Positions 24,969 to 50,740 of a stretch of DNA of 64,000 nucleotides are shown one piece after another (the stretch's first letter is position 1; each line of letters opens with the position of its first letter). Origin of the DNA: Desulfosporosinus sp. FKB (GTDB lineage: Bacteria; Bacillota; Desulfitobacteriia; Desulfitobacteriales; Desulfitobacteriaceae); contig NZ_NADJ01000040.1 in the NCBI RefSeq assembly GCF_002196705.1, forward strand, positions 620,001 through 684,000, in the 5' to 3' direction. The position numbers were made by a program, and so were the translations under genes. The notes beneath the pieces were generated by a model. That model had not been told where the DNA came from, made no database searches, and saw only the letters and a list, made by a program, of their open reading frames with translations.

Positions 24969-27128
24969 CTAATTGTTACTCCCCGGAATACTATCGTTCA
25001 AGTCTTGAACAGTAACCGTCGGATCAGATATATTCTTCGTCCGAAGATCATAGAAGGATGCGGCGACATGATTTACCAGCCATCGTCCTCCGCCGGCGAA
25101 ACTGACTTCATTCTCCGGAAATTGGGGTGAGGCGTAATAGGGATAATAGTCTTGATAAACAATGTTGCCTGAAAAACTTCTGCCGGGATAGTTTTTGGCA
25201 AGATCATTATTAATCTGCACAAAATAGGCCATTATACTTCCTTTTTGATTGGCCTTGAGCAGAGCAACCCAGTTAGCATAATCCTTTGGATTCATATAAC
25301 CCAGAATGCTGAGATTCGATGTTCCGGACTGATTAACAGTAACCTTCCAAAGGAAGTGGACACTCTTATTGTCAATCGTCATGACACTATAGGAACTATC
25401 CAGACCCCTTAAATTATAAGAAGAATTAAGGTAGTTGTCCGGATTTGAAAAATCTGCTGAAGTCAGGTCCGTCTCTACAGGTATTGAAGCGGCAGAACTG
25501 TCATGAGGCAGCTGAGCCAAAGTCTTATTGATATCCTTGGTTAACAAGGGCTTCAAAGAATTACTCGGCATTGCCAAGTAGAAGTTCTGGCCATCCGACA
25601 CATTGACTGTCGTCGTGCCGATAACTTCAGCCTGTTCATTGACGAGGGCTCCGCCGCTCGTTCCTTTAGATATGGCAGCGGAAATTTGAATAAAGGATGC
25701 TTCATTGACTAACTCTGATTTAGTGCTGACTATTCCATCGCTCATTGTATCATCGGTTCCTGAAGTATTCCCCAGGGCGTAAATCTTATCTCCTGTGCTG
25801 ATTGAATCAGAATCGCCCAAGGTCACGGCGGACAGTCCTGCAGCATCTATTTTAAGTAAGGCAATGTCCTGATAGGGATCATAGGCCAGAACTTTGGTGA
25901 CATCATAAGTCTTGCCGTCTTTGGTGGTGACTTTGGCTGAGTTGGCATTCTTAATCAGCTGATAGTTTGTGGCAATCTTACCGCTGGGATCAACAATATA
26001 TCCGCTGCCGCTGGCAATAGGCACACCGCTTGAATCGCTGGTTTCGATATAGACAATCGAAGGACTGAGCTTTTTAGCAATTTCGCTGGCGCTATAGGCT
26101 GCAGCAGGTGTCGTAGGTGTCGTAGGCTGTGCTGGATTCAGATAGCTTTGAACGAGTGCTGAGGGCATCACGACCTCGCCGCCCAAAATATCCAATTGCT
26201 CAATTTGACTGCTCTTAGAGTTTAAATACTCTCCGATGGTCTGCTTATAGGCATTATCGACCAGCAAAACAGGGGCGTTCAGGGCAGCAGCATAGGCCCC
26301 TCCGGCGAGAGCATCTGCAAAACCGTTTCCGGTTGCCATAAACAATTTGCTGAAGTCCAAACTGCTGTCAAACCGATTCAGCACGGCAAGATTACGGGCG
26401 TACTTATCACTGCCCGTTATTCGTTCAACACCAGGAAATTGATCGGCCACCGACTCATTGATTTGATCGGTGCTGCCAATTATATACGTATGAGAAAGCT
26501 GATGAGCCGCCAGATAATCCTGGATACTGTTGGTCAAATGATCTTTTGGTGCCAGGATAATCGGAGCATTTTTTTGAGCAGCGATGGGGGCAATAGATAA
26601 GGCATCGGCATAACCGTCACCGCTGACCACAGCGGCCTCCTGCACATCCCCCAGCTGTTGGGCAACTTCTATAGCCGTATCATACATATCTTCTCCGGCT
26701 AGACGTGTTACATTGATCCCCAGATCACGGACCTGGGCTTCCACGTTCGTGGATACTACAGCAGTCCCCCCCACGATAAACACGTTTTTGACACTTAGAT
26801 CCTGTAACGTTTGCTTCGTTACGGCGGGCAGGCTTTGAGCTTCGGTCAGCAATATGGGAGCATTGAACTTTTTGGCTAACGGAGTTGATGCCAAAGCATC
26901 AGGAAAGTTTTCCCCATAGGCTAAAACAGCATAATCCGACTGTGTCCAGCCTTCCTTAGCGATGGCAGAAGCAGTATCGTACTGAGTATAGCCGGCGATG
27001 CGCTGGCTGGTCGGTGCGGCTATAGCGGGACGGACAAAGGCCATCTGAAGAATACAGACCGAAATAATCAGCAGCAGTGACAGAGAACTCCATCTGGCCC
27101 GCTGGGCATTAAGCGTTCGATAGTCCAT
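24969..27128 (-). CDS. CWB2 protein with trypsin-like (HtrA-type) domain lacking the catalytic His
   Basis: 719 residues. Signal peptide to about 38 (AIAAPT). Three CWB2 repeats at about 42-330, each with a FPDALA-like motif and GGTAVV-like end. A Thr/Pro linker leads to a chymotrypsin-fold domain (about 350-540): SGSGYIVDPSGKIATNYQLIKNA would normally read TNxHVI, so the catalytic His is Gln390 (CAG). Asp421 (DIALLKI) and Ser491 (SKGTSGGALVN) are kept. No PDZ follows. The last 170 residues form an unknown domain with KDYANWVALLKANQKGS. As built it is likely a non-proteolytic binding protein. Head of the wall-protein locus on the minus strand, after a 320-nt gap. Confidence 0.9.
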   Translation of the reverse strand: MDYRTLNAQRARWSSLSLLLIISVCILQMAFVRPAIAAPTSQRIAGYTQYDTASAIAKEGWTQSDYAVLAYGENFPDALASTPLAKKFNAPILLTEAQSLPAVTKQTLQDLSVKNVFIVGGTAVVSTNVEAQVRDLGINVTRLAGEDMYDTAIEVAQQLGDVQEAAVVSGDGYADALSIAPIAAQKNAPIILAPKDHLTNSIQDYLAAHQLSHTYIIGSTDQINESVADQFPGVERITGSDKYARNLAVLNRFDSSLDFSKLFMATGNGFADALAGGAYAAALNAPVLLVDNAYKQTIGEYLNSKSSQIEQLDILGGEVVMPSALVQSYLNPAQPTTPTTPAAAYSASEIAKKLSPSIVYIETSDSSGVPIASGSGYIVDPSGKIATNYQLIKNANSAKVTTKDGKTYDVTKVLAYDPYQDIALLKIDAAGLSAVTLGDSDSISTGDKIYALGNTSGTDDTMSDGIVSTKSELVNEASFIQISAAISKGTSGGALVNEQAEVIGTTTVNVSDGQNFYLAMPSNSLKPLLTKDINKTLAQLPHDSSAASIPVETDLTSADFSNPDNYLNSSYNLRGLDSSYSVMTIDNKSVHFLWKVTVNQSGTSNLSILGYMNPKDYANWVALLKANQKGSIMAYFVQINNDLAKNYPGRSFSGNIVYQDYYPYYASPQFPENEVSFAGGGRWLVNHVAASFYDLRTKNISDPTVTVQDLNDSIPGSNN

Positions 27129-27448: not shown

Positions 27449-30400
27449 TTAACGGGCAACGTCCGTGTAAATTGACATATAGCCGGGATCGGTTGCAACG
27501 ACATGAATTTCAATGGATTTAACCATACCATTGGCTGCAACTCCCGTAAGTTTAAGGACATCTCCCACGTTAGGAGCATTAGTGATCGTACCATCCGAAG
27601 CCATTTTAAACTGACTGGGATTTCCCTTAGCGTCAACAGCCGAGTTTACAATAATCTGAGCCAGGGGCATTCCCTTGGAGCCATATTGATCTACCGCTAA
27701 GAAATAGACGGCGCCGCGGCCTATAATATTTAAATTCGGTGTGTTATCATAACCATTGCCCGTAGGTCCATATTTACCTACTGTTCCATCTTTGTCAAAG
27801 CGCGCCAGGAGTTTATTAGTGGCCAGCCAATTTTGAGCAATTGTGGCAACATCGCCGGTTTCATTCAAGGAATTGCCCGGTAGATAAGTACCCACCGCAG
27901 CAACAAGAGCCATGGCCGAACGAGTTGATGATGAGGATTTAAGCGGTGTCGTAAGGCTGTGCACCAGTCCATCAGCGCCTTGCAGGGTGACCGCTAAGGT
28001 CGTGCTAGATTCCGTGACACCATCGGCTAATTTATTGGCGACAACCTTCACTTTATCATAGGCAATGGGGGCTGAAGAAGCATTGTCTGCAACACTGAAA
28101 TCCTTGGAGTCAACAGATACCCCAATGACGGGTTTTCCCTTTAGTTTTACTTTAGAACCGCTTGATGTTAAGCCATAGACATAGGGATTAGCCGCATAAT
28201 CCTTATCTAATTCAGAAATTGCCGTATTATCGTTAATTGTATAGATGGGCTTGGGAACTGCTGCCATGGTGTAGTCAGTAATGTCTTTATCCGGCAGAAC
28301 GGAAATCGTTACTGATTTTGAATCGATGACCACATGGGGATCTGCCGCATTACCTGCATGGCCATCCCGGGCATTGACCAGATTGAAGATCACCGTCCCG
28401 CTGCCGGCTCCTGTCAGATTATTGGCATTTGCCCCCGCAGCTTGAATGTTAATGCCTTTTGCCCCGGATGCGGCAGGATCACCCACGGCATTTCCGTAAA
28501 TATCCGTTCCGGTAAGTGTGAATTCCGAACTGTCTTTCGTCGTGGCTAATACTTCGTAATCATAAGCCGGAACAGCTAAAGCACCGCCGACATATTGATC
28601 CGGCTCAGTCGCCTTCCCGACCATATCAAGCACCCGGCCATATTGATCCTTAACAACAAGGCCGCCATAATTGATTCCGAAGTCGATAAATTGATTGGCT
28701 CCGTTTTGCATGTTCGTTAATAAGATATCCGGATTCAAAATTAAAGTGTCGGCCTTGGCGGGTTTTTGAATATTCAACGTCAGGTTGCTGACCTTGCCGG
28801 TTGACGTTGAGGCCGTCAATGTTTCCGTTATGCTTTGGCTTCCAGTGTTGGCAAAGGGTTTGTTTAAGATGCTCGCTGTACCATCGGCATTTTCTTGCAG
28901 GATACAGTTCGTCAGGATCAAACCGCTGACGGATTCTTTCAGGTCAGTGTATTTCTTTAATTGAGTTCCATTTTGATCGTAAGCTATGAAAGGAATTACC
29001 TTAGATTCCCCGGACGCTACATCATAAGAAGGAGCCATCAAGCGGATCGAATCAAGCTTTGAGGCTTTATTTAAGGTTGTGTTAAGGGTGGAGGTTGTTC
29101 CTGTCCAGGTCATGGCGGTAATAATAGTCGGCATATCTACCGTAATGGCATTGCCCGACGTATTATTGGCAACGACCTTAATGACTGCCTTCGAGGAATC
29201 GCTGGGATCTTCTTCAACAGAAGCTGTGACATAAGAGTTGGAGGTTGTAAGCAGATTATCATTGCCGTTGTTATCGGAATGCAAAATCAATCCGCCTTTA
29301 ATCAAATCATAACTGGTTGTGGGATTACCGCTGATATCCTTTGCCGTATAGGATGCATAGAATACGCTGGTGTCTCCGTCGGTCAAAGTCAAATCATTAG
29401 CATTGGTTAAGGTCCCTAATTGAAAATCACTCAGCGTCCCAAGCTGTGTCGAGGTTGTCAGGGTCGCACTTGTTGAAATCCCGGATGTCGAGTCATAACC
29501 TGTTATAACAACTGTGGAGAATTGCATCAAGTTTGTAATATTTGAACTGGGGGTTAAGGTCAGCAGTCCATCTTTTGGCTCTACTGCCCCTACACCACTT
29601 TGAAAATTTAAGCTGTTGGCGAGCCCCCCAGTAGTAATATCATTTCCATATTGGTCTAAGACGTTATACGTCGCATATCCCTTTTGGCTGTTGTCCTTGG
29701 AATTTGTGACAACTCCTAATTTCGTGGACGTAATCGTTAGAGAAGCAATCTTTTGTTGATCTAGAGTTACTTCTGAAGTTCCCAGATCTGTTTTGTCATC
29801 CTTGACATTGACCGTATACTTTCCTTGCGGAAAATTGGCCGAATACTTCAAGGTCGCTTCTGTTTTTTCGGTATTCCAGGTTGGCGACACCGTAAAGGGA
29901 TTCGCAAAACTTTCAACTGTAAAGATGATTTTCGCGGTATCTGCCGGGGCGTGATTAAAGGAAACTTTAATACTGTCCGCGCCCACTGCCTTGACAGAGG
30001 TTACAGTCAAACCCTGAGACGAGGAAGACGTATCCTGTCCGGCTACTCCTAAGCGAACCTTTTCAGGTACCACTGCCGTACCTCCGAGAGCCGTTACCAC
30101 TGTTCCCTCGGTGAGTTTATTTTTTATGAAGGAAGCTGCAGACGGAACCGTCCCATTGGTTAAAACGATGGGAGATTTCGTCTGCGCTGCGAGAGGAGCC
30201 CCGGCCAGAGCATCGATTCGGGTTTCACCGTTAGCCACATAAATATTGGTATAATGAAGGACAGAATCGAAATCCTTGATAACTTGGCTATTGGTGTCAT
30301 AAGCTGTAGTTCCGGCATGACGGACAGCACCGGGAAATTGAGCCTTTACGGCATCACTGATGATACCTGTTCCGCCGATAATATCGCTAGCCGTAATACC

Positions 30401-31003
30401 TTTGTTGGCGGCAAGATACCCCGCAACGCTGGCTGGAACGGCGTTTTTGTCTGTCAAAAGGATGGGTTCATTGGCTGCTGAAGCAATCGAAGCAATTGAG
30501 AGCGCATCCGGAATCCCATTGGCCACGGCAACTTTAGTTACCCCGACCATTTTTTTGGCGATATTGACAGAGGTATCTGCTCTGTCGGTGCCGCCAAGGG
30601 AAATAACAGTAATACCCATACTTTGCAGCTGATCGAGGACTGCTTGAGGAATAACTGCCGTCCCACTTGTTACATAGACTGTTTTAACCTTCAGTTTAAT
30701 AAGTTGGGCTTTCGTATCGGACTCAAGTGTTTTTCCCGCACCGGTCAAAAGGATTGGAGCTTTCAGGTATACTGCCAGTGGCCCTGCCGTCAAGGCATCT
30801 ACCATACCATAGGAAGTGGACGATGCCAGAATCGCCGTACCGCTGTATCCCGTCTGATCAGCAATCGCTGCCGCAGTTTGCGCTGCAGTTGCACCAGCTA
30901 AACGAGTTGGAACTGTACCTTCGGCAAAGGTTTCGCCAGGAACCATTGTTAAGGCCATAACCGCGATGGCTAGAGTGGCTAAAACTTTCTTTGGCTTTCT
31001 CAT
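27449..31003 (-). CDS. S-layer-like protein with three CWB2 repeats (paralog of 34456-38424)
   Basis: 1184 residues. Signal peptide 1-28 (LATLAIAVMALTMVPGETFAEG is split by the hydrophobic core at 8-20). Three CWB2 repeats at about 33-318. The remaining 860 residues are Thr/Ser/Ala/Asn-rich beta modules with no enzyme motif, closely similar along almost their whole length to the 1322-residue protein at 34456-38424; shared blocks include KIASLTITSTKLGVV-type and DQYGNDITTGGLANSLNFQ. It lacks the tandem Ig modules at the C-terminus of the paralog. The leader before the ATG (CGAGAGGAGA) is also shared. Codon use is less biased than in the paralog, so lower expression is expected. Likely a secondary or alternative S-layer protein. 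Confidence 0.9.
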   Translation of the reverse strand: MRKPKKVLATLAIAVMALTMVPGETFAEGTVPTRLAGATAAQTAAAIADQTGYSGTAILASSTSYGMVDALTAGPLAVYLKAPILLTGAGKTLESDTKAQLIKLKVKTVYVTSGTAVIPQAVLDQLQSMGITVISLGGTDRADTSVNIAKKMVGVTKVAVANGIPDALSIASIASAANEPILLTDKNAVPASVAGYLAANKGITASDIIGGTGIISDAVKAQFPGAVRHAGTTAYDTNSQVIKDFDSVLHYTNIYVANGETRIDALAGAPLAAQTKSPIVLTNGTVPSAASFIKNKLTEGTVVTALGGTAVVPEKVRLGVAGQDTSSSSQGLTVTSVKAVGADSIKVSFNHAPADTAKIIFTVESFANPFTVSPTWNTEKTEATLKYSANFPQGKYTVNVKDDKTDLGTSEVTLDQQKIASLTITSTKLGVVTNSKDNSQKGYATYNVLDQYGNDITTGGLANSLNFQSGVGAVEPKDGLLTLTPSSNITNLMQFSTVVITGYDSTSGISTSATLTTSTQLGTLSDFQLGTLTNANDLTLTDGDTSVFYASYTAKDISGNPTTSYDLIKGGLILHSDNNGNDNLLTTSNSYVTASVEEDPSDSSKAVIKVVANNTSGNAITVDMPTIITAMTWTGTTSTLNTTLNKASKLDSIRLMAPSYDVASGESKVIPFIAYDQNGTQLKKYTDLKESVSGLILTNCILQENADGTASILNKPFANTGSQSITETLTASTSTGKVSNLTLNIQKPAKADTLILNPDILLTNMQNGANQFIDFGINYGGLVVKDQYGRVLDMVGKATEPDQYVGGALAVPAYDYEVLATTKDSSEFTLTGTDIYGNAVGDPAASGAKGINIQAAGANANNLTGAGSGTVIFNLVNARDGHAGNAADPHVVIDSKSVTISVLPDKDITDYTMAAVPKPIYTINDNTAISELDKDYAANPYVYGLTSSGSKVKLKGKPVIGVSVDSKDFSVADNASSAPIAYDKVKVVANKLADGVTESSTTLAVTLQGADGLVHSLTTPLKSSSSTRSAMALVAAVGTYLPGNSLNETGDVATIAQNWLATNKLLARFDKDGTVGKYGPTGNGYDNTPNLNIIGRGAVYFLAVDQYGSKGMPLAQIIVNSAVDAKGNPSQFKMASDGTITNAPNVGDVLKLTGVAANGMVKSIEIHVVATDPGYMSIYTDVAR

Positions 31004-31991: not shown

Positions 31992-32018
31992 AATTTCCCC
32001 TCACAATGAGGGGAAATT
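31992..32018. terminator. hairpin, possible bidirectional terminator
   Basis: Perfect inverted repeat AATTTCCCCTCA/TGAGGGGAAATT with a 3-nt loop. The minus-strand continuation is TTTTATTTTAAT, fitting termination of the CWB2-LRR pseudogene about 180 nt upstream of it. No gene between 31955 and 32196. Confidence 0.6.
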
Positions 32019-32196: not shown

Positions 32197-33320
32197 CTAC
32201 TGAACATTGCCTGTAACTTCTACTGTTAAAATTACATATCCATCATATCCATCAACCAAAGCATAATAATAATAAGTTCCTACTTCACTTGTATCAACAG
32301 TAGCTGCATTCCATTTAACTGCCACGTCCCTCCCGGGAATCCCCTTATACACCTTCGCTTTTACAGTTGATGGTAGCGTATAACTATCATTTTGATTCAC
32401 AGATATACTAATGTTATCAATTAAAATTAAATCCTTCCCAAAGTTTCTAGAATTAATTATTTGAGAGCAATTATAATCACCTCCAGTTAAATCTCTTAAA
32501 TTGAGATTTTTAAGGCAAATATATTTTAGAGCATCAAAATCATTATTACTATTATTTAACTGATTATCATTCAATTTGTTACCTTCCAAGTGTAGGGCTC
32601 TTATATTTGATAGACCTTTCAGGGCACTAATATCAGTAATTTGATTATTCTCCAAGTATAACGCCGTTAAATTTGTACAATTTTCTATTCCACTCAAGTC
32701 TTTGATTTGTGAACCATTTCCATAAATACACTTTAAACTTTGAGCATCCTGAATAGTTATATCCCCGTTATTCTTATGAATAGTTTCCCTGACTACATTC
32801 TCAAGGTTATGATCTTTAAATTTGCAAATGGTTTGTGGTGTAGAAAGAGATTTCTTTCCTATATCTTGAATTAAACTATCGGAGACAACAGCTGTACCTC
32901 CAAATACATTAATCGTATTTGTATTATTTAACCGTTCTTGATAGTAACTCTTGTTATATCTTGTGGGGAATTCTTTACAAGAATAATAGGGGCATGTAGT
33001 TTTGCCGCATATACTGATCCCGCAAGTGCATCCGCAAAATTTTCTCCAGTAGCTAAACAAAGACTATCTGAATTAAGATAGGTATTAAACTTTTGATTAA
33101 TGGCTATATTCCTTTCATATTTATCTTCTCCAACGATTCGCTCAGGCTTAAAACCAATAAATTCTTTGAAAACATCATCCATTTATGACACTAGAATCTC
33201 CTACCACATATGTATTTAGCGGACCCGTTCCTGATCTGCTATAACCAATATAATTCACATAGTCCTTAACGCAATCTGGGATGACATCCTTTGGTACCAA
33301 TATAATTGGATCTTGTTTTA
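32197..33320 (-). pseudogene. decayed CWB2-LRR surface protein gene
   Basis: The remnant covers parts of a surface protein in three frames. 33320 to about 33178 encodes part of a CWB2 repeat (PIILVPKDVIPDCVKDY, TYVVGDSSV). After a frame change, 33180 to about 32940 gives the third repeat (RIVGEDKYERN, ATGENFADALAG). After a second, to 32197, come INVFGGTAVVSD, about four leucine-rich repeats (LTALYLENNQITDISAL, IRALHLEGNKL) and an Ig-like Big_4 end (SVNQNDSYTLPSTVKAKVY). The N-terminus and signal peptide are gone; an IS110 remnant abuts at about 33325. Lower G+C than the neighbours. Confidence 0.8.
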
Positions 33321-33324
33321 AAAA

Positions 33325-33615
33325 CGAAAGTCTGGTAAAGCCAAAAAAGTAAGGCAAAAGTTAAGAAGTTCCCTTGTTGAATCCGCCCGAGCTGCGTCCC
33401 GCACGAAAGAAACATATTCATCGTCACAGTACCACCGAATAGCCGCCAGTAAAGGAGCAAACCGAGCTGCTTTGGCTGTTGCCCATAGCATTTTAATCAT
33501 CGCGTACTACATCCTAAAGAGAAGACCGCCCTATATTGAGCTTGGTACAAACTATTATGCAGAACTAAAGCGTCTTACAGTGCTAAAACAGTCAATTAAG
33601 AAACTTGAGGTTTAG
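33325..33615 (+). pseudogene. IS110-family transposase C-terminal fragment
   Basis: 97 codons open to a TAG at 33615, without a start. The sequence has the C-terminal IS110 (Transposase_20) pattern: RKSGKAKK, LRSSLVESARAASRTKETY, QYHRIAASKG and AVAHSILIIAYYILKR. The N-terminal DEDD catalytic part is absent. It meets the decayed CWB2-LRR gene at its left edge, so insertion or deletion here probably removed the 5' end of that gene. Confidence 0.8.
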
Positions 33616-40688: not shown

Positions 40689-43370
40689 TTACTGAAGTAA
40701 TGCTTCCACGCTTTGCACAACAGCATCCGGCAGTGCAATTTTTCCTCCCAAAGCCTCTATTTGCTTGCCTTTCCACGAGGTCAGCAGAGTAACCAGGCTG
40801 GAGGGCAGCTCCGACTTGGTCGGGACGAGAACGACCATCGAACCTTGCAGCGCTGCCCTGACTGCTCCCGTCAGAGCATCGGGAAAATTCTCCCCTGTTG
40901 CTAATTCCAGTTTCAACGAACTGGGCGGATACGTCTGCAAAACAGCAGCTGCCGTGTCATAGGCCGTATTTCCGGCAATTCTTTGGGGGAGAGGCAGCTG
41001 ATCTTCAACGGCAGAACTTATAACGGCAGTTCCGCCAATGATCAATGTCTGCGAAACCTTAAGTTCCTTAAGAGATGTTTGAGCATCTTCCGCTAAAGCA
41101 TCTGCGCCTGTCAGCAAAATCGGAACCCCTTGACGCGCCGCCCAGGCGGAAATGGCCAAAGTATCCTGAAAATGATTGACATTGGCAATCACAGCTCGTC
41201 CTTCTGTACCCAGTTCTTTTGCAATAGCCCCCGCGGTACCCTCTGCCGTATAGCCGTAAAGACGTTTTACCGTGTAGGTGCGCTGAAGCTCCAGCTCAAT
41301 CTGCGCTGAAAGAGCAGCCGGACCGCCTAAAAGATAGATGGTTTTCGGAGCAAGGCGCTGGATTTCGCTGCGAACATCAGGTGTGAGGGCGGTGCTGGGG
41401 GTCAGTAAAATCGGTGCCTGCAACTTATAAGCCAAGGGCGCCCCGGCTAAAGCATCAGGAAATTGATTAGCTTGAGCGAGAATTACCGTATCCGCTCCGG
41501 TGGGAAAGGCAGCCTGAGCAATCTGAATCGCCGTTCCTTCGGCCGTTGTGCCTGCAAAACGCTGTACTGACTGACTTGCGGCCTGTATTGTTCCCACGGT
41601 GTAAATCCCCGGCTTAAAAAGGCCGAAATTGATTTCTCCGTTTTGCAGCTCTCCTCCTAAGGTGATCCAGCGTGCGCCGTCCCAATGATAAATAACGGCG
41701 TCTTGCATTCCTTCCAGGGAAGGATCGCTGCAATTTAAGGCCAGCATTTCCTTTGGTGTCTCGCTTCCCCACTCGACGTCAAAGGCCGGCGTTAGAAATC
41801 TTGCCTCATTCGGAAGGGCTTGCGGGATTGATACTGATGTCAGGGAAACATTGGCTGAAGCTGCGAAGGCTTGCGCAGGTACTGACAACGTTAAGGCAGC
41901 GGACCCCTCAATCGCCTCAACACTGCCGCCCAAACTAGTGACATCCGCCGGTGAGGGACGTGTTTCTTCGGTTTGCGCGGCAAGGGTTACGGCCCGGGTG
42001 ACATCAACTAAACCGTAACCGTAATCATTGTCCCGCCCAGGCGTTCCCAAATCTTTGACGCCGGCTTTCAGAGCCTCAACAACCTGGTCCCGTGTCCATG
42101 TAGGATGCTGCCCCCAGACAAGAGCCGCCTCTCCGGCCACAAAAGGCGAAGCCATCGAGGTTCCGCTGGCATCAGCATAGCCGGAACCCTCAGCCAAACT
42201 CCACCAATCGCTGGTAATTTCGTCCCCCGGTGCGGCTAAACTGACTTCCGGACCGGTTGCCGAATAGGAAGCAATGTCGTTATTTTGGTCTGTTGCCGCA
42301 ACAGCCAGGACATGCGAATCTGAGGCAGGATACGTGACCCCGGGATTTTTTGCGGAGGAAGGATCGTAGTTCCCGGAGGCAGCGACGAGCAGGCATCCTT
42401 TATTGTAGGCGTGAAGGACCGCTTGGCCGATCACCTCTGAGAACGCCTCATCATCTGAGCCCAGACTCAGATTGATAATTTTAGCCCCGTGGTCGGCAGC
42501 CCAGACGATTCCGCTGGCAATAGCATCGTCATAGCCATCTCCGTCGAAATTCACTGCTTTGATGGGCATAATTTTCGCCTGATAGGCCACACCGACAATA
42601 CCTGTATTATTTCTCTCTGCCGCAGCGATGCCGGCAACATGGGTGCCATGTCCGTTATCATCTTGATTCGCCCCAGGTGCGTCACTCTGGGTAATCGCAT
42701 TGTACCCCGGGACAATATTATCCTTCAAATCGGGGTGGTTTAGGTCTATGCCCGAATCCACGATGGCGATGGTTATTCCCTTGCCTGTCGCCCCCATACC
42801 CCATGCTCCCTGAACATCCCCGTTCACGACAGACCATTGATCCTTAAAATAGGGATCAGAGGGCAAGGCAGGCAGGGATGCTGCGGCTATCTTGTGCAGG
42901 TGATTTTCCTGGGCACTGAGAACCCCGGGAACCTTTTTTAGGCTTGCGGTCATCGCCGCTATGTTGACCGTTTTCTCAAACCCCAACGTCGCAAAATTCA
43001 GCGGTCCCTGCCGCAAAACCGTGGCCTTAAATTCTTTGGCCAGTTTTGTAATATCGGTTTTAGAAGCTAAGGAGACGACAATCTGTGGGGTGGGCGGGGA
43101 AACAGAGCTTGCTGACTTGGAATCCTTGGCTATTGATTGAGAAGGAATCAGAGCCTGTACTTGTTTTGGGGAAGTAATTGACCCCGAAGACGCCACAGGT
43201 AATTGAGTTAGAATTTGGTTTTGAGTTTGTGACGTTCCCGGTGTAAGATAGTTTTGTTCTGTTAAAGTCACGGACATAAGGCTTACATTCAATCCTATTA
43301 TTAAAAAAGGAACAAAGAGATATTTAACCTTATTAATGAAGAAACTTTTTTTAATACGAATATTTGCCAC
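40689..43370 (-). CDS. subtilisin-like (S8) serine protease with three CWB2 repeats
   Basis: 893 residues. N-terminal anchor or signal segment (about 15-36), a Ser/Gln-rich stretch and an I9-like propeptide (about 95-160). The S8 domain (about 175-470) has the complete triad: Asp205 (VDSGIDLNHPDL), His241 (NGHGTHVAG) and Ser405 (GTSMASPFVAG). A beta region follows (about 480-600), then three CWB2 repeats (605-893) at the C-terminus. Probably matures or degrades surface proteins, a job filled by the cysteine protease Cwp84 in C. difficile; that analogy is inference. No clear GGAGG close to the ATG; GAGGTGGC lies upstream. Confidence 0.94.
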   Translation of the reverse strand: MANIRIKKSFFINKVKYLFVPFLIIGLNVSLMSVTLTEQNYLTPGTSQTQNQILTQLPVASSGSITSPKQVQALIPSQSIAKDSKSASSVSPPTPQIVVSLASKTDITKLAKEFKATVLRQGPLNFATLGFEKTVNIAAMTASLKKVPGVLSAQENHLHKIAAASLPALPSDPYFKDQWSVVNGDVQGAWGMGATGKGITIAIVDSGIDLNHPDLKDNIVPGYNAITQSDAPGANQDDNGHGTHVAGIAAAERNNTGIVGVAYQAKIMPIKAVNFDGDGYDDAIASGIVWAADHGAKIINLSLGSDDEAFSEVIGQAVLHAYNKGCLLVAASGNYDPSSAKNPGVTYPASDSHVLAVAATDQNNDIASYSATGPEVSLAAPGDEITSDWWSLAEGSGYADASGTSMASPFVAGEAALVWGQHPTWTRDQVVEALKAGVKDLGTPGRDNDYGYGLVDVTRAVTLAAQTEETRPSPADVTSLGGSVEAIEGSAALTLSVPAQAFAASANVSLTSVSIPQALPNEARFLTPAFDVEWGSETPKEMLALNCSDPSLEGMQDAVIYHWDGARWITLGGELQNGEINFGLFKPGIYTVGTIQAASQSVQRFAGTTAEGTAIQIAQAAFPTGADTVILAQANQFPDALAGAPLAYKLQAPILLTPSTALTPDVRSEIQRLAPKTIYLLGGPAALSAQIELELQRTYTVKRLYGYTAEGTAGAIAKELGTEGRAVIANVNHFQDTLAISAWAARQGVPILLTGADALAEDAQTSLKELKVSQTLIIGGTAVISSAVEDQLPLPQRIAGNTAYDTAAAVLQTYPPSSLKLELATGENFPDALTGAVRAALQGSMVVLVPTKSELPSSLVTLLTSWKGKQIEALGGKIALPDAVVQSVEALLQ

Positions 43371-43586: not shown

Positions 43587-45662
43587 ATGATTAAATTCTT
43601 CACAAGGAAATCTGAGCAAACTAATCACAATCAGCCATATAACACCAAAAAGCATAAATTACGCATGGTCTCCTGCCTCATTGCCCTTATCTGCGGTGTA
43701 GCCCTCTTGACCAATCTGGTCCCTTTTCAGTCTGTTGATGCCCAGGCTGCTTCTACTGATTCCATCACAGATCGAATCTATGGCACTACCCTCTATGATA
43801 CGGCCATAGAGATCTCCAAAGCTGGGTGGGATCAAGCTCCTGTTGCTGTCCTCGCTACAGGTCAAAACTTCCCGGATGCGCTCACAGGATCTGTTTTGGC
43901 GCATAAAGTAAATGGACCCTTGCTTCTGACAGAATCCGATCATTTAGATCCTGCTGTTTTAAGCGAGCTGAAACGGCTGGGGACAAAAAATGTCTATCTT
44001 CTCGGCGGAACCGTTGCTCTGAGCAGTTCTATTGAGCAAACCCTCAAAGATCAGGGAATTACTCCGACACGTCTTGCCGGGACAGATCAATATGGAACTG
44101 CTGCAGCGATTGCAGGTGTGGCAACTCCGACCTCAGACCAGGCTTTCATCGTTAATGGTGAACATTTTCCCGATGCTTTAAGTATTTCTTCTTATGCGGC
44201 AGCTCATGGGATACCGATTTTGCTCACGCGTCCGGATTCCTTACCTGCGGAAACTGTCTCAGCTCTTGCCCAAATGGGTGTCCAGAAGGTCACTCTGATC
44301 GGCGGAACGGCCGTTATTCAGAAAACCGTAGAAGATCAGCTGGCGAAACTCCCGCAGCCGGTTACTGTTACCGCCCGTTATGCCGGGTATGATCAGTACG
44401 AAACAAATAGTATCGTATTAAATCAGCTCCCTTATGACAGTTCCCATGTCTATGTTGCCACAGGCGAAAATTTCCCCGATGCCTTAGCAGGTGCGGCCCT
44501 GGCGGCAAAAACGAATTCTCCCATCTTTTTGTTTCCTTCAAAACCATTAGCTTCTTATACATCATCTTATCTCGATCAAAAACGATCTTCCGGCACTGCC
44601 TTTACAATTCTGGGGGGGTGGGGCGTAATTAATTACAAGATGGAAAGTATCCTGCGGACAGGAGTTGTGCAGCCCCGGATTTCCCTGCAATTTACCCAAG
44701 GTGCACTCAGCGGGACGAAGGGAATGCTCAGCCAGCTCCAATCAATTCCTTCACCGGCTACCGATTACGCCGATCTGATCGGGCCGAGCTGGTATTACCT
44801 TGATGACGCAGCCAATGGCAATGTCACCGGAGGCTGGGATGCCACCGCGGCAGACTATACTCAATTCACAAGCGCTGTCCATGCCCGCGATCTTAAGGTT
44901 CTGCCCGTAATTCAGTCAAGCTGGTCGACCCCTAAAACCGTAGACACAGTCTTGTCTTCAGCAACAACTCGGGCAGCCTTGGAAAACAAGATCATCGCTT
45001 TAATCCAAAACACCAATTCTGACGGAATTGTCATCGACTTTGAACTGATCAGCGACAGTACAGGGCCCTATCTTACGCAGTTTATGCATGAACTCTATGC
45101 CAAACTTCACCCTCTGAACAAGTTGGTCATTGAAGCGGTTATGGCTCGCACAGGCTCAGAGTCCTGGCTGACAGAATTTAATTACTCTGCTTTAGCCCAA
45201 AACGTGGATTACCTGGATGTTATGACCTATGACTACAGCCATTCAACCCCAGGACCCATTGCACCTCTGGATTGGATGAACAAGGTTATGCAATACACCA
45301 AAGCTCAAGGTGTTGATATGCATAAAGTGCTCCTCGGCATACCGTACTACGGCAACGACTGGTGGACTACGGGCAGCGGAAGCAGCGCTACCTATCAGCG
45401 AAAATCCGGCGGGATGGCCGAACTTCAGGCCTTAGCGCAAGGTCCCATTCAGAGAGATTCCTCGCAAATCCCTTATTTCAATTACACGGATTCTTCCGGC
45501 ACCCACACTGTTTATTACGACGATGCTCAAAGCTGGAACGCCAAACTGTCCCTGCTCAACCAATATAGTCTTGGCGGAATCGGAGCCTGGTCACTCAACT
45601 GGTCACTCACTCCTGCAAGCTCCAACGCCATATTCCCGCTCCTTAAGCAGTATTTGCGCTAA
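43587..45662 (+). CDS. GH18-family glycoside hydrolase with three CWB2 repeats
   Basis: 691 residues, the only plus-strand gene of the wall locus. Signal or anchor segment about 26-45 after a basic, Asn-rich start. Three CWB2 repeats (about 61-355). The C-terminal GH18 barrel (365-691) has the catalytic motif DGIVIDFE with Asp484 and proton donor Glu486, and later LDVMTYDYSH and GIPYYGNDWW, as in the YaaH/SleL and spore-peptidoglycan glucosaminidase branch. Probably an N-acetylglucosaminidase acting on wall glycan. AAGGAGGGG lies before the ATG. Divergent from the subtilisin gene and convergent with the GT2 gene. Confidence 0.93.
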   Translation: MIKFFTRKSEQTNHNQPYNTKKHKLRMVSCLIALICGVALLTNLVPFQSVDAQAASTDSITDRIYGTTLYDTAIEISKAGWDQAPVAVLATGQNFPDALTGSVLAHKVNGPLLLTESDHLDPAVLSELKRLGTKNVYLLGGTVALSSSIEQTLKDQGITPTRLAGTDQYGTAAAIAGVATPTSDQAFIVNGEHFPDALSISSYAAAHGIPILLTRPDSLPAETVSALAQMGVQKVTLIGGTAVIQKTVEDQLAKLPQPVTVTARYAGYDQYETNSIVLNQLPYDSSHVYVATGENFPDALAGAALAAKTNSPIFLFPSKPLASYTSSYLDQKRSSGTAFTILGGWGVINYKMESILRTGVVQPRISLQFTQGALSGTKGMLSQLQSIPSPATDYADLIGPSWYYLDDAANGNVTGGWDATAADYTQFTSAVHARDLKVLPVIQSSWSTPKTVDTVLSSATTRAALENKIIALIQNTNSDGIVIDFELISDSTGPYLTQFMHELYAKLHPLNKLVIEAVMARTGSESWLTEFNYSALAQNVDYLDVMTYDYSHSTPGPIAPLDWMNKVMQYTKAQGVDMHKVLLGIPYYGNDWWTTGSGSSATYQRKSGGMAELQALAQGPIQRDSSQIPYFNYTDSSGTHTVYYDDAQSWNAKLSLLNQYSLGGIGAWSLNWSLTPASSNAIFPLLKQYLR

Positions 45663-45879: not shown

Positions 45880-46587
45880 TTACTCGGGCCAGATCCGGCT
45901 CATCATTGAGTTAAGAATGATGGCTAAACTCACCTTGAACATATAGTACCCGCTTTTAAAAGGGGTAATTGACGAGTTTCCGGAAATACGGGCGTCCATC
46001 TCCACAGAGACTTCTATGACCCTTACTCCGTTTTTGATCAGGGTTACGATGGCATCGGGTTCCGGGTAGTCTGTTGAATAATGGGCCGAAACCATACGCA
46101 GGGCTTTCTGGTTATAGGCGCGGAATCCCGAGGTGGGGTCCGTATATTTCCTGCGCACCACGGACTGGATCGTTTTGCTTAAGAGATAGATTCCCATGCG
46201 CCGGGACCAGGAGGATTTATAGGCCGTTTTACTCAAAAAACGCGATCCGATGGTGACATCAGCTCTGTCCCTGAGAATAGGCTCAATCAATTTCTGGATC
46301 TCTTCAGCCCGGTGCTGCCCGTCTCCATCGACTTGCAGGGCAACATCATAGTGATTTTTAACGGCATAGAGAAATCCTGTTTGCACTGCTCCCCCGATTC
46401 CCAGATTCACAGGCAAGGAAATGACGTTTGCTCCATGACTGCGGGCAACCTCCGCCGTTTGATCCGTCGATCCGTCATCGATGACCAGAACATCCAGCCA
46501 AGAGGACACTTTTTTTAGATTATCCACCACGGCGCCGATATTCCGGGCTTCATTCAATGCCGGAACAATCGCTAAAATTCGTTGCAT
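45880..46587 (-). CDS. family 2 glycosyltransferase (polyprenyl-phosphate glycosyltransferase type)
   Basis: 235 residues. GT-A fold marks: VPALNEARNIGAVV at the start, VIDDGSTDQTAEVA, then the DxD-like QVDGDGQH and a DPTSGFRAYN segment. This pattern belongs to the DPM1-like branch that moves a sugar from a nucleotide to polyprenyl phosphate. There are no membrane segments of the GtrB type at the C-terminus. It follows a DUF2304 protein (9-nt gap) and a GT39-like membrane enzyme, a set that recurs in Firmicutes wall-decoration loci. The sugar is not known. Confidence 0.9.
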   Translation of the reverse strand: MQRILAIVPALNEARNIGAVVDNLKKVSSWLDVLVIDDGSTDQTAEVARSHGANVISLPVNLGIGGAVQTGFLYAVKNHYDVALQVDGDGQHRAEEIQKLIEPILRDRADVTIGSRFLSKTAYKSSWSRRMGIYLLSKTIQSVVRRKYTDPTSGFRAYNQKALRMVSAHYSTDYPEPDAIVTLIKNGVRVIEVSVEMDARISGNSSITPFKSGYYMFKVSLAIILNSMMSRIWPE

Positions 46588-46596
46588 ACCTTCTTT

Positions 46597-47013
46597 TTAC
46601 ACGTCCTTATGCGGACTCGTTTCCGCTGCTTGTTTCTGCTTCCTGATTTGCGGGGATTTTGTCTGAGGACTCTGCTGCAAATTTCTTAAGTCGTCTTCTA
46701 GTAAAGCAATTCTCTGCACCAAAACACGATTCGTAGAACTCAATCTGGAAATCTCCAGGGAAAAATGGACACAAAGAATAAAAACCAAGACCCCGAAAAT
46801 TACAAAAATCGCGGAGGGTGCGTAGTAAATTCCCATGAGATTCGCCAAATACTCGATCCCGTTTCTCCATAAGGAGAAAAAGATCATGCCAAAGCCCGCA
46901 ACAATCCAAATTAAAGAATATTCAACGGCCAGACGGCGCAGACGTACTTGTTCGATAATAAAACCTGTGACCAGAATGCTCATAATGAGTACGACGATTT
47001 GGACACGCGACAT
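46597..47013 (-). CDS. DUF2304 membrane protein
   Basis: 138 residues with three membrane segments (about 3-20, 32-50, 66-88) and a C-terminal coiled coil (SSTNRVLVQRIALLEDDL) ending in a polar tail. The start MSRVQIVVLIMSI and the EYSLIWIVAGFGM segment fit DUF2304, a partner commonly found just upstream of GT2 genes, as here. Probably helps to anchor or flip the lipid-linked sugar. Gap of 3 nt to the GT39-like gene. Confidence 0.85.
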   Translation of the reverse strand: MSRVQIVVLIMSILVTGFIIEQVRLRRLAVEYSLIWIVAGFGMIFFSLWRNGIEYLANLMGIYYAPSAIFVIFGVLVFILCVHFSLEISRLSSTNRVLVQRIALLEDDLRNLQQSPQTKSPQIRKQKQAAETSPHKDV

Positions 47014-47016
47014 CGT

Positions 47017-48324
47017 TTATGCCAACCTCCCATGGGCTCTTCCCCGTGTTCCCAGCAGCTTCCCGGCTCCTTTAAGGAGCAGTACAAGACCCAGGGACCC
47101 CGCCAAAATCATCGCCGGCATCACCGGCAGGCGATAACGTCCTCCTGAAACGACTGTGATCATACTCACGATAAAGCTGTAGTAAAGGATATAAAGCAAA
47201 AGGAAGCTGTATTTTTTCAGCCAGATGATACTTAAGATAATCCCGCTTAAGCCTAAAAGCAGATACCACTTGTCAAGGAAGTCCCCTTTCATTTTATAAG
47301 CCTGCCCTTCTTGGGAACTTACGGGCTGCCAAAACAGATTCTTTTCTTTGGCCAAGGTGCGCTCCAGAAACAGCACCGGATGACTGACAATATAGGAGAC
47401 TCCCAGACTTTTATACTCCTTTTCCTGCTCCAGGAGAGGAAGTTTATCAATCCTTGCTTTGACCGCCGGGTCATAGCTGGGCTGATCCATGACAAAGTAA
47501 CTATTTGTGATCGTGCGAGGGTTATTCCCTAAATAAAACTCGTAGGAACCATAATTGGAAACAGATATAGACTGGTGATATTTTAACTCATTGCGTATCC
47601 ACCAGGGACTCATGACTAAGACGGTCATGAACAGGATAAGCATAAAATCCCGCAGCGCTTGCTTCAGCCGCCAGCCTTTCATCCAGAAAATCCAAAATCC
47701 CATAACCGGAAAATAGAGCAAAAGAAAGGGACGAACAAGATTAGAAACTCCTATCACTACTCCCAAAATTAAAAGAGTGGACATTTTAGGCCGGCCGATT
47801 TCTCGGGCATAACGTGCCGAACAATAGAGAAACAGCCAAATGGCAAAAACATAAGTCGTTTCTGTTAAGACATACATCCCCCAGAAGGCAAACAAGGGGT
47901 AGCCGAGAGTCAAGACGTAAGGTATCCAGGCATACCTCTTACCAAACAGAAGTTCCCCGGTTTTAAAAGCAAGTACCGCGCTGGCTGCTCCAAGCACACC
48001 ATGCAGAACCACGATCACCATGGCATAACTTTTAAAACCAAAGATTCCATAGATTAAGGCTAAAAGCAGGGGATAAACCGGGCCTACTACATAGTCCCGG
48101 GTCTTAGGAAAAGCTTGGACAACATGATTAACGCCTTCAGCGAAATTCGCAGTGTTCACCAGTCCTTTGCCCTGGAGAAAGTTTTCAGCGATATTGGAGT
48201 AAAGATACCCATCCGGAGAGATAAAATAGTGTACCGAATAGGATTTGATATAAAGAAGCTCAAGGCCTAAGGCTATGAAGAACAGGAGGCCTGTTATCCA
48301 TAGCCTTTTATATTGCTGTGCCAA
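47017..48324 (-). CDS. GT39/ArnT-like membrane glycosyltransferase
   Basis: 435 residues with about ten membrane helices. The first extracytoplasmic loop has the acidic region PDGYLYSNIAENFLQGKG, and a later PVYPLLLALIYGIFG segment is typical of ArnT/PMT-like enzymes that use a polyprenyl-phosphate sugar. The start is TTG with GGAGG 12 nt upstream. Together with the GT2 and DUF2304 genes it can make and transfer a lipid-linked sugar to a wall polymer or surface protein outside the membrane; the acceptor is unknown. Glycosylation of the S-layer proteins is one possibility. Confidence 0.88.
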   Translation of the reverse strand: MAQQYKRLWITGLLFFIALGLELLYIKSYSVHYFISPDGYLYSNIAENFLQGKGLVNTANFAEGVNHVVQAFPKTRDYVVGPVYPLLLALIYGIFGFKSYAMVIVVLHGVLGAASAVLAFKTGELLFGKRYAWIPYVLTLGYPLFAFWGMYVLTETTYVFAIWLFLYCSARYAREIGRPKMSTLLILGVVIGVSNLVRPFLLLYFPVMGFWIFWMKGWRLKQALRDFMLILFMTVLVMSPWWIRNELKYHQSISVSNYGSYEFYLGNNPRTITNSYFVMDQPSYDPAVKARIDKLPLLEQEKEYKSLGVSYIVSHPVLFLERTLAKEKNLFWQPVSSQEGQAYKMKGDFLDKWYLLLGLSGIILSIIWLKKYSFLLLYILYYSFIVSMITVVSGGRYRLPVMPAMILAGSLGLVLLLKGAGKLLGTRGRAHGRLA

Positions 48325-48339: not shown

Positions 48340-48381
48340 CGTGTTCTTCTCCGCTAATTCCGCGTTCTTCTCCGCTAATTC
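48340..48381. repeat. 21-nt tandem duplication
   Basis: CGTGTTCTTCTCCGCTAATTC is followed at once by a copy with one change, between the GT39 start region and the stop of the next gene. The second copy covers that stop codon. Probably replication slippage; no function seen. Confidence 0.7.
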
Positions 48382-50740
48382 AGGAAGACGTCAGCAGACC
48401 TTCTAAAATCTTCTCATTAGAACTGGAGATAACTCCTGTTCCACCAAGTATATAAGCCTTGGTCGTTTTTCCGCTTTGAGCCTTCAAGTAGGCCTTTGTA
48501 TCAGCGTTTAAGTCCCCTTGAGGAATTAAGAGCAAGGGACTTCCCGTAACGGCAGCAAAGGCTCCACCCGCCAGTCCGTCCGGAAAGGTTTCTCCCGTCG
48601 CTATAACTAATGTTGCTGGGTCCTGCTGAAAATAGTTTACAATCTTGATCATCGTATCATATTTTGTCTCCCCAGCCAAGCGCACCGGCCCGTAGCTCTC
48701 CAAGGGGCCTCCTGTGCTGTCAAAGGACGTGGAAACGGCGTATTTCCCGCCGACGATAATCGTTTTCGTCACTTTATAATCTTGCAAAAGCTGCAGTGTC
48801 GAGTCAGGCAGCGTACTTTTCTCCGTCAACAGAATGGGAATCCCCAAAGCGGCAGCCGGAGCTGAGGCACTTAAGGCATCAGGGAAACTTGTGGCAGATG
48901 CAAGGATAACTTGAGTGCTGGGACCCATTCTGCGGGCAATTGCCGCAGCGGTATCGGCGGCGGAATTGCCAAAAATACGTTCAGAGGGCAAATTGGCCTG
49001 GGTAAGGGCATCCGTTACGTTGGGGCTGATGGCGACTTCTCCCCCGATAACAAAAACTTTGGTCCCTGCACCCAGTCGTTTCAATTCCTGTAAAACGTTG
49101 CTCTCCAGTTCGTCAGGGGCTGTTAAGAGTAAGGGTGCCTTTAATTTTCTGGCCAAAGGGGCTGCCGCCAGGGCATCCTGGAAGCGGTCGACCCGGGCCA
49201 AAAGGACAACAGGGGCAGAATTATCGGCCCAGCCTTCCTGGGAGATCTTAATTGCCGTATCTTCGGCACGGGTCCCAGAAAGACGAGTAACTGCCGCACC
49301 CGCAGGCTGTGGCTCAGCGGGCGAAGTCGGCGTTGAACCGGAAGTTGAACCTGAGGTCGAACCCGGGGTTGAGCCTGACGACGGAGTCGTTCCGGAGCTT
49401 GCCGAACCCGAACCACCGGCTGCCTGATAGCCGGTTTGAGCACGCTCTGTCAGACCGGCATCTAAACTAGGGCCTTGCAAAACTGTTTGATAGTAACCCG
49501 CCGCAGTGGCTTTACCATCTGTTGTCCCTGCAAGGACCAATTTGTCGGCTTCGTCCAAAAGTTTATTATAGGCGGTGAGAAGACCATTGTCTGCCCGTTG
49601 AACAAGGTCGGCATCGACACTGGAGCCTTGTAAAACAGTCTCATAGTCCTGAACCGCGCTTTTAGCTGCTGAAGCATCTCCCGTCTGAACCATGTTGTCG
49701 GCTTCATCCAATAATTTTCCCAAGGCATTCTTTAAGCCTGTGGCAGCCTGGGAGGCAGCATCTTGATTCAAACTTGGTCCTTGGAGAACCGTCCAATAAT
49801 ATTTGGCGGCACTGGCATCGGAGGAGTCCTTCCCTTCCTGCACGAGGGAATCGGCTTCAGCCAGAAGATTCGTTTGAGCACTTTGGATTTTCTGCGTAAC
49901 AACGGTTTTATCGGCGATCGCGGAGCTGTCATAAGCCGTATTATAAAAACCCAGGGCATAGTACGATGCCCAGCGGGCATAGTTGAACCAATAGTCTCCA
50001 TTCGCGGCATCACCACCGCTTCCGCCGCCCGTCGCCAACAATTGATCCTGATCAATCTTCAGGTCACCGGTATGGGTTTCGGCCGGTGTGCTGTATCGAC
50101 TGGAATTATTGGGTGGATTTACAGAGGGCAGGAGGTTTGCCGGGTACTTGGCAGCCCCGGGAGCAAAGGTAACTGCGCTGTTGTATTTTTGACCCATGAG
50201 GCTGAAGATCGAATCCTGATAGGCCGGAGATCCTGTGCTGACATTCGGGTTGTTGCGCGAGCCCCAGTTGTTGTAGGCCCAGACTGCAAAATACCAGTTT
50301 TCCAGGACATTGCGGTCGCCGTTGCCAATTTTAGGCGCAGCCCGCCATTTTTGATTAAGTAATTGACAGCCTATTTCTATGTTATAGTCAATATCGGTTT
50401 TCAGTTTGTCAATCGTCGCTGTATCGCTGGAACTGTAACTCGAGATTTGCATAATCCCAATTCCTATGCCGTCCTTCCCGATTAAAGGCTGGTCAAGTAT
50501 GGGCTGTCCCGAGTCATCGAGTTCATATTGTCTCCAGCCGCTTTCCATCCAAGCGATAGATTTCAAAAGTACCGGAGGGATATTGTATTTGTCTGCCCAG
50601 TATTCCAGTTTTTGTCCGATTCCTGTGTAATATGCTGTTTTATCTACTGCTGCCGAAGCTGTCCTGACGGGTACCAGCTGCATAAAAAAGAGCGCGGCCA
50701 TAAAAATGGCCAATAACTTTTTGTATCGGCGCCAAAACAT
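48380..50740 (-). CDS. lytic transglycosylase-like protein with helical repeats and three CWB2 repeats
   Basis: Start set at ATG 50740, with GGAAGGGG and GAAGA upstream; TTG 50761 is in frame but weaker. 786 residues: signal peptide (1-31), an SLT-type lysozyme domain (about 35-195) with the catalytic Glu66 in SIAWMESGWR and GIGIMQIS, then three imperfect helical repeats of about 57 residues (marks YYWTVLQGPSL, DYETVLQGSSV, YYQTVLQGPSL), a Ser/Thr/Gly/Pro linker of about 35 residues, and three CWB2 repeats (about 490-786). It cuts glycan strands with anhydro-MurNAc formation, by family. Wall remodelling or release. Confidence 0.92.
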   Translation of the reverse strand: MFWRRYKKLLAIFMAALFFMQLVPVRTASAAVDKTAYYTGIGQKLEYWADKYNIPPVLLKSIAWMESGWRQYELDDSGQPILDQPLIGKDGIGIGIMQISSYSSSDTATIDKLKTDIDYNIEIGCQLLNQKWRAAPKIGNGDRNVLENWYFAVWAYNNWGSRNNPNVSTGSPAYQDSIFSLMGQKYNSAVTFAPGAAKYPANLLPSVNPPNNSSRYSTPAETHTGDLKIDQDQLLATGGGSGGDAANGDYWFNYARWASYYALGFYNTAYDSSAIADKTVVTQKIQSAQTNLLAEADSLVQEGKDSSDASAAKYYWTVLQGPSLNQDAASQAATGLKNALGKLLDEADNMVQTGDASAAKSAVQDYETVLQGSSVDADLVQRADNGLLTAYNKLLDEADKLVLAGTTDGKATAAGYYQTVLQGPSLDAGLTERAQTGYQAAGGSGSASSGTTPSSGSTPGSTSGSTSGSTPTSPAEPQPAGAAVTRLSGTRAEDTAIKISQEGWADNSAPVVLLARVDRFQDALAAAPLARKLKAPLLLTAPDELESNVLQELKRLGAGTKVFVIGGEVAISPNVTDALTQANLPSERIFGNSAADTAAAIARRMGPSTQVILASATSFPDALSASAPAAALGIPILLTEKSTLPDSTLQLLQDYKVTKTIIVGGKYAVSTSFDSTGGPLESYGPVRLAGETKYDTMIKIVNYFQQDPATLVIATGETFPDGLAGGAFAAVTGSPLLLIPQGDLNADTKAYLKAQSGKTTKAYILGGTGVISSSNEKILEGLLTSS

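Follow-up and report, generated by a model that had tools for sequence, protein, structure and literature searches.

The stretch of DNA analysed here (the window, 64,000 nucleotides of Desulfosporosinus sp. FKB: contig NZ_NADJ01000040.1, positions 620,001 to 684,000, part of a 5.12-Mb draft genome of 40 contigs) carries a group of genes for proteins with the CWB2 anchor, and directly beside it a polysaccharide cluster. On balance, we lean towards the reading that the two make up a CWB2-anchored surface system, in which the adjacent Wbp-type wall polymer would be the ligand of the anchor. The reading draws on the gene content of the locus, its linkage in relatives, the exchange of a polymer cassette and the codon bias of a predicted surface layer (S-layer) gene, all of them read from the sequences. 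To our knowledge, the CWB2 ligand has been demonstrated in one species; among the titles covered, which took in the subscription literature in part, no report on a CWB2-polymer linkage in this group was recognised.

In the proposed system, the protein SlpA, and less so its paralogue SlpB, would form the S-layer, and an amidase, a transglycosylase, a GH18 enzyme and a subtilase on the same anchor would remodel or process the wall. The polysaccharide cluster would make an acidic secondary cell-wall polymer by the Wzx/Wzy route: the PF02397 enzyme would start the repeat on undecaprenyl phosphate, Wbp-type enzymes would supply 2,3-diacetamido-2,3-dideoxy-uronic acid, Wzx would flip the repeat, a Wzy_C protein would polymerise it, and attachment of the polymer to peptidoglycan would fall to an LCP ligase whose gene lies elsewhere. 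The CWB2 triplets would hold their cargo non-covalently on a conserved part of the polymer, the variable middle being exchangeable, and a trio of GT2, DUF2304 and GT-C proteins may add a side sugar outside the membrane, either to the polymer or to the S-layer.

The CWB2 genes of the window are as follows.

1..1677 (extends beyond the window start), minus strand: CWB2 triplet protein with C-terminal anchor and weak Big_1 cargo (PF04122, three stretches)
24969..27128, minus strand: CWB2 triplet with a trypsin-like domain (Trypsin_2), catalytic His replaced by Gln (Pfam, sequence comparison)
27449..31003, minus strand: SlpB, CWB2 triplet with about 850 aa of beta domains, paralogue of SlpA (Pfam, model, fold match, codon usage)
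32197..34300 (upper end estimated), minus strand: decayed CWB2 gene with LRR_4 and Big_4 (Pfam, frames)
34456..38424, minus strand: SlpA, CWB2 triplet with beta domains, predicted main S-layer protein (Pfam, codon usage)
39009..40598, minus strand: CWB2 triplet with Amidase_3 (Pfam)
40689..43370, minus strand: subtilase S8 with C-terminal CWB2 triplet (Pfam)
43587..45662, plus strand: CWB2 triplet with GH18 (Pfam)
48380..50761, minus strand: SLT transglycosylase with repeats and C-terminal CWB2 triplet (Pfam)

Three stretches of PF04122 are present in each of the eight intact genes (Pfam scan). A preliminary description of this DNA had counted seven intact CWB2-triplet genes and a decayed one in 24969-50740, with another at 1-1575, and the profile search, Pfam and the frame check agree, with the ends at 50761 and 1677. 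The same holds for its varied cargo (Trypsin_2, two paralogous beta proteins, Amidase_3, S8, GH18 and SLT, with leucine-rich repeats (LRR) in the decayed gene) and for the C-terminal anchor of the subtilisin and the transglycosylase, to which Pfam adds the 1-1677 protein. The genome as a whole has 64 CWB2 matches, which we interpret as 21 genes (20 triplet genes and a single gene with two repeats), a fragment and one sub-threshold match; seven of the genes and the decayed fragment fall in 24969-50761. Elsewhere in the genome, the anchor carries fn3, a second trypsin-like domain, LRR with Big_4, Big_3, VanW, SH3 with amidase, and peptidase A4. Hence the mixing of cargo is genome-wide, and the window locus is its densest part. 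CWB2 occurs in many Firmicutes, and in C. difficile the Ile-Leu-Leu motif of its repeats is essential (PMC4973711; this and the other articles cited by PMC number are cited for the parts of them that were accessible). The exact motif stands in 11 of the 21 repeats of the seven proteins, and the other 10 have IIL, VLL, IVL, LIM, VVL, LLL or IFL. Phage-type PHROG matches exist for the hydrolases. Among the relatives, whose genomes bear G codes and genera g codes below (C codes are contigs of the own genome), the genus g19 (G063-G067) has expanded CWB2 to between 43 and 162 per genome among the matches listed.

Two of these genes depart from an active form. The trypsin-like protein has NYQ where its own-genome paralogue (C35:417k) and the G028 homologue have NYH; the label 'pseudo-trypsin' given to it earlier is apt, and with the catalytic His lost its processing role is doubtful. 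In the decayed gene, the open frame with LRR_4 and Big_4 has no CWB2 match in Pfam, the sole CWB2 match there is partial (C35:652958-653140, in an 84-aa frame), and stops interrupt all three minus-strand frames across 32901-34460. The GC (guanine plus cytosine) content drops to 0.348 across 32001-34000, over this gene, and an intact CWB2-LRR-Big_4 gene is present on C24.

Codon usage and fold support, without proving, an S-layer role for SlpA and less so for SlpB. The codon adaptation index (CAI) was referred to ribosomal and elongation-factor genes, EF-Tu itself being within the reference, and was compared over 169 open reading frames (ORFs) of at least 200 aa from 17 own-genome stretches, which lie mostly around CWB2 genes and are no random sample. 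SlpA is at the top of these with a CAI of 0.787 (EF-Tu 0.80, rpoB and rpoC 0.70), and SlpB is unexceptional (0.712). The 855-aa cargo of SlpB was modelled as a chain of beta domains, with a mean predicted local distance difference test score (pLDDT) of 75 and a predicted template modelling score (pTM) of 0.42. Among the PDB entries that Foldseek matched to this model, the top one is the Sap S-layer protein of B. anthracis (E 3.2e-15), with SbsB at rank 3 and SbsC at rank 5, although cadherin-type chains score alike and all template modelling scores are low. The S-layer-like nature suggested earlier for the beta proteins is thus backed by codon usage for SlpA and by fold ranking for SlpB. A third S-layer-type copy lies on C19 (L041:14246-17804), and its first ORF likewise has a CAI of 0.787. 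This gene appears split, but the break falls at an assembly N with duplicated overlap and is probably an artefact. Recombination among SlpA, SlpB and the third copy as a variation system was also considered; since the identity of their aligned DNA does not exceed 0.78 in any window of 150 columns, we rejected recent gene conversion.

The polysaccharide cluster begins at about 51 kb, directly beside the CWB2 group and Wzx/Wzy-like as first described, and runs for 25 kb to about 12 kb past the window, where it ends at galU (labelled by eye). Its genes are as follows.

51133..51801, minus strand: GNAT acetyltransferase (Pfam)
52290..52946, minus strand: initiating polyprenyl-phosphate sugar-1-phosphate transferase (PF02397)
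53030..54241, minus strand: GT4 glycosyltransferase (Pfam; relatives in polymer types A and B, compared below, and in most other mapped clusters, not seen in G005)
54328..55350, minus strand: FemAB/GNAT-like protein (within the genus only in type A; also in G047)
55307..56698, minus strand: Wzy_C membrane protein 1 (Pfam)
56695..58407, minus strand: deacetylase-like protein (weak VimE match, 63.4 bits against a cut-off of 440; no Pfam match)
58404..59471, minus strand: WbpI-like UDP-GlcNAc3NAcA 2-epimerase (nearest PDB entry 8sxv)
59583..60998, minus strand: Wzx-type flippase (Pfam)
61028..62365, minus strand: GT4 glycosyltransferase (Pfam)
62259..63389, minus strand: GT4 glycosyltransferase (Pfam)
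63386..64000 (continues past the window), minus strand: Wzy_C membrane protein 2 (Pfam)
Beyond the window: WbpD-, WbpB- and WbpA-like genes, CapD, acyltransferases, orf262, orf270 and galU (the second acyltransferase labelled by eye, as is galU)

The predicted sugar follows from the nearest solved relatives of these enzymes, by which WbpA, WbpB and WbpI of the Wbp pathway (UDP-ManNAc3NAcA) are all matched. The 2-epimerase is closest to the UDP-GlcNAc3NAcA 2-epimerase 8sxv (E 4e-123), ahead of the UDP-GlcNAc 2-epimerase 4neq (6e-98) and WecB-type enzymes (about 4e-43). Likewise, the WbpB-like Gfo/Idh enzyme matches 3q2k (5e-88) and 3q2i (3e-83), both of which we take to be WlbA, the next match being at 4e-36; the nearest structure to the WbpA-like 6-dehydrogenase is 4r16, a UDP-ManNAcA dehydrogenase. 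A WbpA-like gene is found in 71 of the 73 genomes of the order, counting a copy of about 55-56% in G007, and the two without it are 85% and 77% complete. In all, four of the five Wbp enzymes for the 2,3-diacetamido-uronic acid lie in the cluster, the WbpD-like one being only probable, and the polymer may accordingly be expected to contain 2,3-diacetamido-2,3-dideoxy-uronic acid, unlike PSII of C. difficile. The gene for the fifth, the 3-aminotransferase WbpE, is inside the cluster of most relatives mapped; their DegT protein matches WbpE structures at 1e-91, its best match being another transaminase. In G000, G008, G009 and G017, a DegT pair outside the cluster is 44-45% and 34-35% identical to the relatives' in-cluster gene; this pair lies at L254:9075-11494 (C29), with counterparts in G008, G009 and G017, strains without both in-cluster aminotransferases. 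Where the cluster has no epimerase (g3, G050), the sugar may be used in its gluco form, as can be surmised after PMC4031482. No mannose-activation or LCP match was found among the block genes scanned (all but two). The products of orf262 and orf270 (L032:8978-9766 and 10199-11011) each have a membrane helix at the N terminus, and no family matches them above cut-off; the two genes are locus markers in many genomes of the order. The model of orf270 consists of the membrane helix and a helical bundle (pLDDT 57) and had no PDB match at E up to 0.001.

Inside the CWB2 group, at 45880-48324, lie three genes together that the preliminary description had passed over.

45880..46587, minus strand: GT2, polyprenyl-phosphate sugar synthase-like (NCBIfam polyprenyl- and dolichyl-phosphate sugar transferases, all below cut-off)
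46597..47013, minus strand: DUF2304 small membrane protein (Pfam), which we take to be GacJ-like
47017..48324, minus strand: membrane glycosyltransferase of GT-C type (PMT_2; a sequence search of the PDB gave no relative up to E 0.1)

DUF2304 is above cut-off in 23 of 45 genomes of the family. This genus accounts for 22 of these, the own genome among them; the remaining one is G004, where the gene is remote from the S-layer locus. G008 carries a further copy at another place. In all 16 other Desulfosporosinus genomes mapped with it, the trio stands in the same place, between CWB2-GH18 and SLT-CWB2. An EamA-type small protein is found near the trio in several relatives, not in the window.

The linkage between the CWB2 genes and the polymer block is widely kept. 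It was scored in 43 stretches from 41 relatives, each fetched stretch being searched with a CWB2 profile derived from the seven window anchors and labelled by BLAST; 16 of the 39 named relative loci were annotated. The preliminary description had proposed Peptococcaceae for this comparison, but NCBI places Desulfosporosinus in Desulfitobacteriaceae. With G020, G022 and G044 left out, as their contigs break between the two halves, 38 relatives are testable, and in 34 of them a CWB2 gene lies 80-7878 bp from a contiguous polysaccharide block with a WbpA-like gene. These 34 belong to 12 genera in three families (g1, g2, g3, g6, g8, g9, g10, g11, g14, g15, g16 and g20), and 14 of them have CWB2 genes also 85-1199 bp beyond the far end of the block. 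The usual order is S-layer gene, (amidase), (subtilase), divergent GH18, polymer genes, (CWB2 genes), orf262, orf270 and galU. Three short contigs were scored separately, outside the 38: CWB2 genes stand beside CapD in G060 and G062, two more genera, and none was seen on the 6.8-kb contig of G049. In G058 and G061, CWB2 matches are 2-5 kb from the WbpA-like gene by coordinates, among the matches listed.

The middle of the cluster has been exchanged between strains. The 18 Desulfosporosinus genomes mapped (own included) comprise eight of polymer type A, eight of type B, one other (G033) and one untyped (G020). For example, G015 (A) and G028 (B) are mutual nearest in most comparisons and share 89-95% identity in amidase, GH18, GT2, WbpB, WbpA, CapD and galU and 66-91% in most other shared flank genes, but only 64% in GT4a, 58% in the epimerase and, for Wzx, a GT4 and a Wzy_C, no more than 23-31%. 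The deacetylase, FemAB, the second Wzy_C and a further GT4 have no counterpart. The anchors of this pair are 86-92% identical despite the polymer swap. G018 and G013 show the same pattern, whereas in the control comparison, G011 against G014 within type B, almost every gene from the amidase through to galU is 91-100% identical. A Dlt-like set (MBOAT, AMP-binding, DltD) is present in G014, of type B, and relatives of the set in G033 and G007. Co-evolution of anchor and polymer type was not seen for the S8, GH18 and SLT anchors (p 0.43, 0.38 and 0.37; label shuffle, 16 genomes), which follow the strains. As the middle is swapped and three of the four anchors are unaffected, CWB2 should read a conserved part if the polymer is its ligand. 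It is possible, and put forward more tentatively, that this applies across the order: CWB2 would bind the conserved part of a diacetamido-uronic-acid polymer, one anchor would serve chemically unrelated polymers from clade to clade, and the outer polymer would be switched by cassette exchange with the S-layer kept.

Several observations weigh against the polymer as ligand. The linkage test, set beforehand, came out positive in the 34 relatives, but G065, G070 and G072 failed it and G007 is ambiguous. On 40 kb, G070 and G072 have part of the polymer genes and no CWB2 gene, and their genomes have only 6 and 3 weak CWB2 matches among the matches listed. Conversely, G065 has 162 among the matches listed, and the block is absent from the stretch inspected; a lone WbpA-like gene stands on its 40 kb, with the nearest CWB2 gene 9.7 kb off. 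G007 has only the WbpA paralogue mentioned above, 294 bp from a CWB2 gene, and its S-layer, amidase, subtilase and GH18 group is 40 kb away beside Dlt-like genes. The loci L251-L253, from metagenome-assembled genomes, keep galU, orf270 and orf262 and no other labelled polymer gene on the stretch. Further, the count of 34 in 38 comes from relatives that are not independent and may in part reflect background synteny. The amidase anchor is associated with polymer type (p 0.0002; label shuffle, 15 genomes) and may follow the polymer swap, although such tests are weak either way because label shuffles ignore phylogeny. On the side of the sugar, the WbpD candidate is a hexapeptide acyltransferase only (nearest QdtC, 1e-22), and the cluster of the window's own clade (G000, G008, G009, G017) has no WbpE gene. 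Both LCP genes of the genome are outside the cluster. Nor does this genome encode a close homologue of the 3-aminotransferase that most relatives have in the cluster. On both counts the locus is not self-contained, contrary to the earlier proposal.

An alternative that we consider unlikely is that the cluster is an slg-type S-layer glycosylation locus, whose glycan would be covalently bound to SlpA and SlpB with one Wzy_C as oligosaccharyltransferase, the CWB2 ligand being made elsewhere. Such clusters exist in organisms with S-layer glycoproteins, such as Geobacillus (PMC2943079), and a C. difficile strain of S-layer cassette type 11 (SLCT-11) has a glycosylated S-layer (PMC6254364). All eight type A clusters encode two Wzy_C-type proteins, one of which could be the ligase, and 16 of the 17 other Desulfosporosinus mapped have S-layer-type genes on that side of the block where the CWB2 genes stand. 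The remaining one, G033, has the CWB2-polymer block with no S-layer-type gene on its stretch, which speaks against glycosylation, and in the 14 relatives flanked on both sides the block is bordered by CWB2 enzyme genes, not by S-layer genes alone. Moreover, neither a Wzm/Wzt-type ABC exporter nor an Rml gene occurs among the block genes scanned, Wzx being present instead, and some clusters contain the Dlt-like acylation set, of a kind usual for wall polymers.

It is also rather improbable that the cluster makes a capsule or exopolysaccharide unrelated to CWB2 anchoring, in a neighbourhood that is an old envelope-gene block kept by descent. The swapped interior is reminiscent of capsule and O-antigen loci, most Desulfosporosinus stretches also have in common a gene beyond galU, and polymer genes nearly without CWB2 (G070, G072) or many CWB2 genes without the block (G065) would fit. 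Descent alone, however, sits poorly with a linkage that survives an inversion of the inner block in g3, rearrangement of the S-layer genes and polymer swaps. In addition, of three window genes on the left of the CWB2 group, none turned up next to it elsewhere in the genus, save for a 26% lipoprotein-type match in G010; this control is weak because left margins of at most about 7 kb were fetched. Far less probable still is that the trio, and not the large cluster, makes the group recognised by CWB2. Its constant place inside the CWB2 group would suit such a role, but CWB2 is numerous in genera of the family with no DUF2304 match (for example G007, with 63 among the matches listed), and the trio is hence no general requirement.

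Further from the locus, two overlapping ORFs of the PF02321 outer-membrane efflux family are located at 16614-19059, and MacB- and HlyD-type genes at 1670-5263. The two efflux ORFs hint at a diderm envelope, which was rejected because the own genome has no Omp85 match, against seven of 14 control genomes. A TolC-like protein is thus encoded in an apparent monoderm without an Omp85 match.

If the order-wide proposal is true, cassette switching in these bacteria would resemble O-antigen or capsule switching, with the S-layer kept. A linked locus across three families, together with an identifiable sugar pathway, provides a candidate CWB2 ligand that can be purified, and the strains for this are harmless. 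Likewise, strain pairs with swapped polymers and anchors 86-92% identical allow a direct test of the part of the polymer that CWB2 reads.

Parts of the locus have counterparts in several known systems. The trio resembles GacI/GacJ/GacK/GacL of Streptococcus and WpsA/WpsB of Lactococcus, with a GT2, a small membrane partner and a GT-C; GacI/GacJ make the GlcNAc-P-undecaprenol that GacL uses, and the GacJ likeness of the DUF2304 protein also follows from that source (PMC10821137). Unlike in the Gac system, no Wzx-type GacK adjoins the trio here. The P. aeruginosa Wbp pathway is represented by WbpA-, WbpB- and WbpI-like and probably WbpD-like enzymes. In P. gingivalis, the Wbp-dependent anionic lipopolysaccharide (A-LPS) carries surface proteins, 19 of about 30 C-terminal domain (CTD) proteins being LPS-modified (PMC4031482). 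A-LPS is the LPS of a diderm, whereas the present host is an apparent monoderm whose CWB2 anchors would be non-covalent. The chained beta domains of the SlpB cargo model are like those of SbsB and SbsC of Geobacillus/B. stearothermophilus, which are anchored by SLH domains or the SbsC N-domain, unlike the CWB2 proteins here. The wall polymer of B. stearothermophilus contains diacetamido-dideoxy-uronic acid (cited in PMC4031482).

The slpA/cwp locus of C. difficile with its anionic polymer (AP) genes for PSII has, as here, a CWB2 S-layer protein, anchors at either end of the proteins and adjacent polymer genes (PMC4973711). Its AP locus has mannose-activation and LCP genes, in place of which the window block has Wbp-type uronic acid genes. 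Further, 32 C. difficile isolates show 95-100% conservation of their locus (PMC5065235), whereas strains here have exchanged the middle part of the polymer cluster. The equivalence to C. difficile proposed at the outset thus holds for the linkage of CWB2 and polymer genes and for the supported S-layer, but not for the predicted sugar, which is not that of PSII. As judged from sequences and models, the locus is arranged like slpA/cwp with AP, with other polymer genes and a cargo that ranks nearest to Bacillus-type S-layers.

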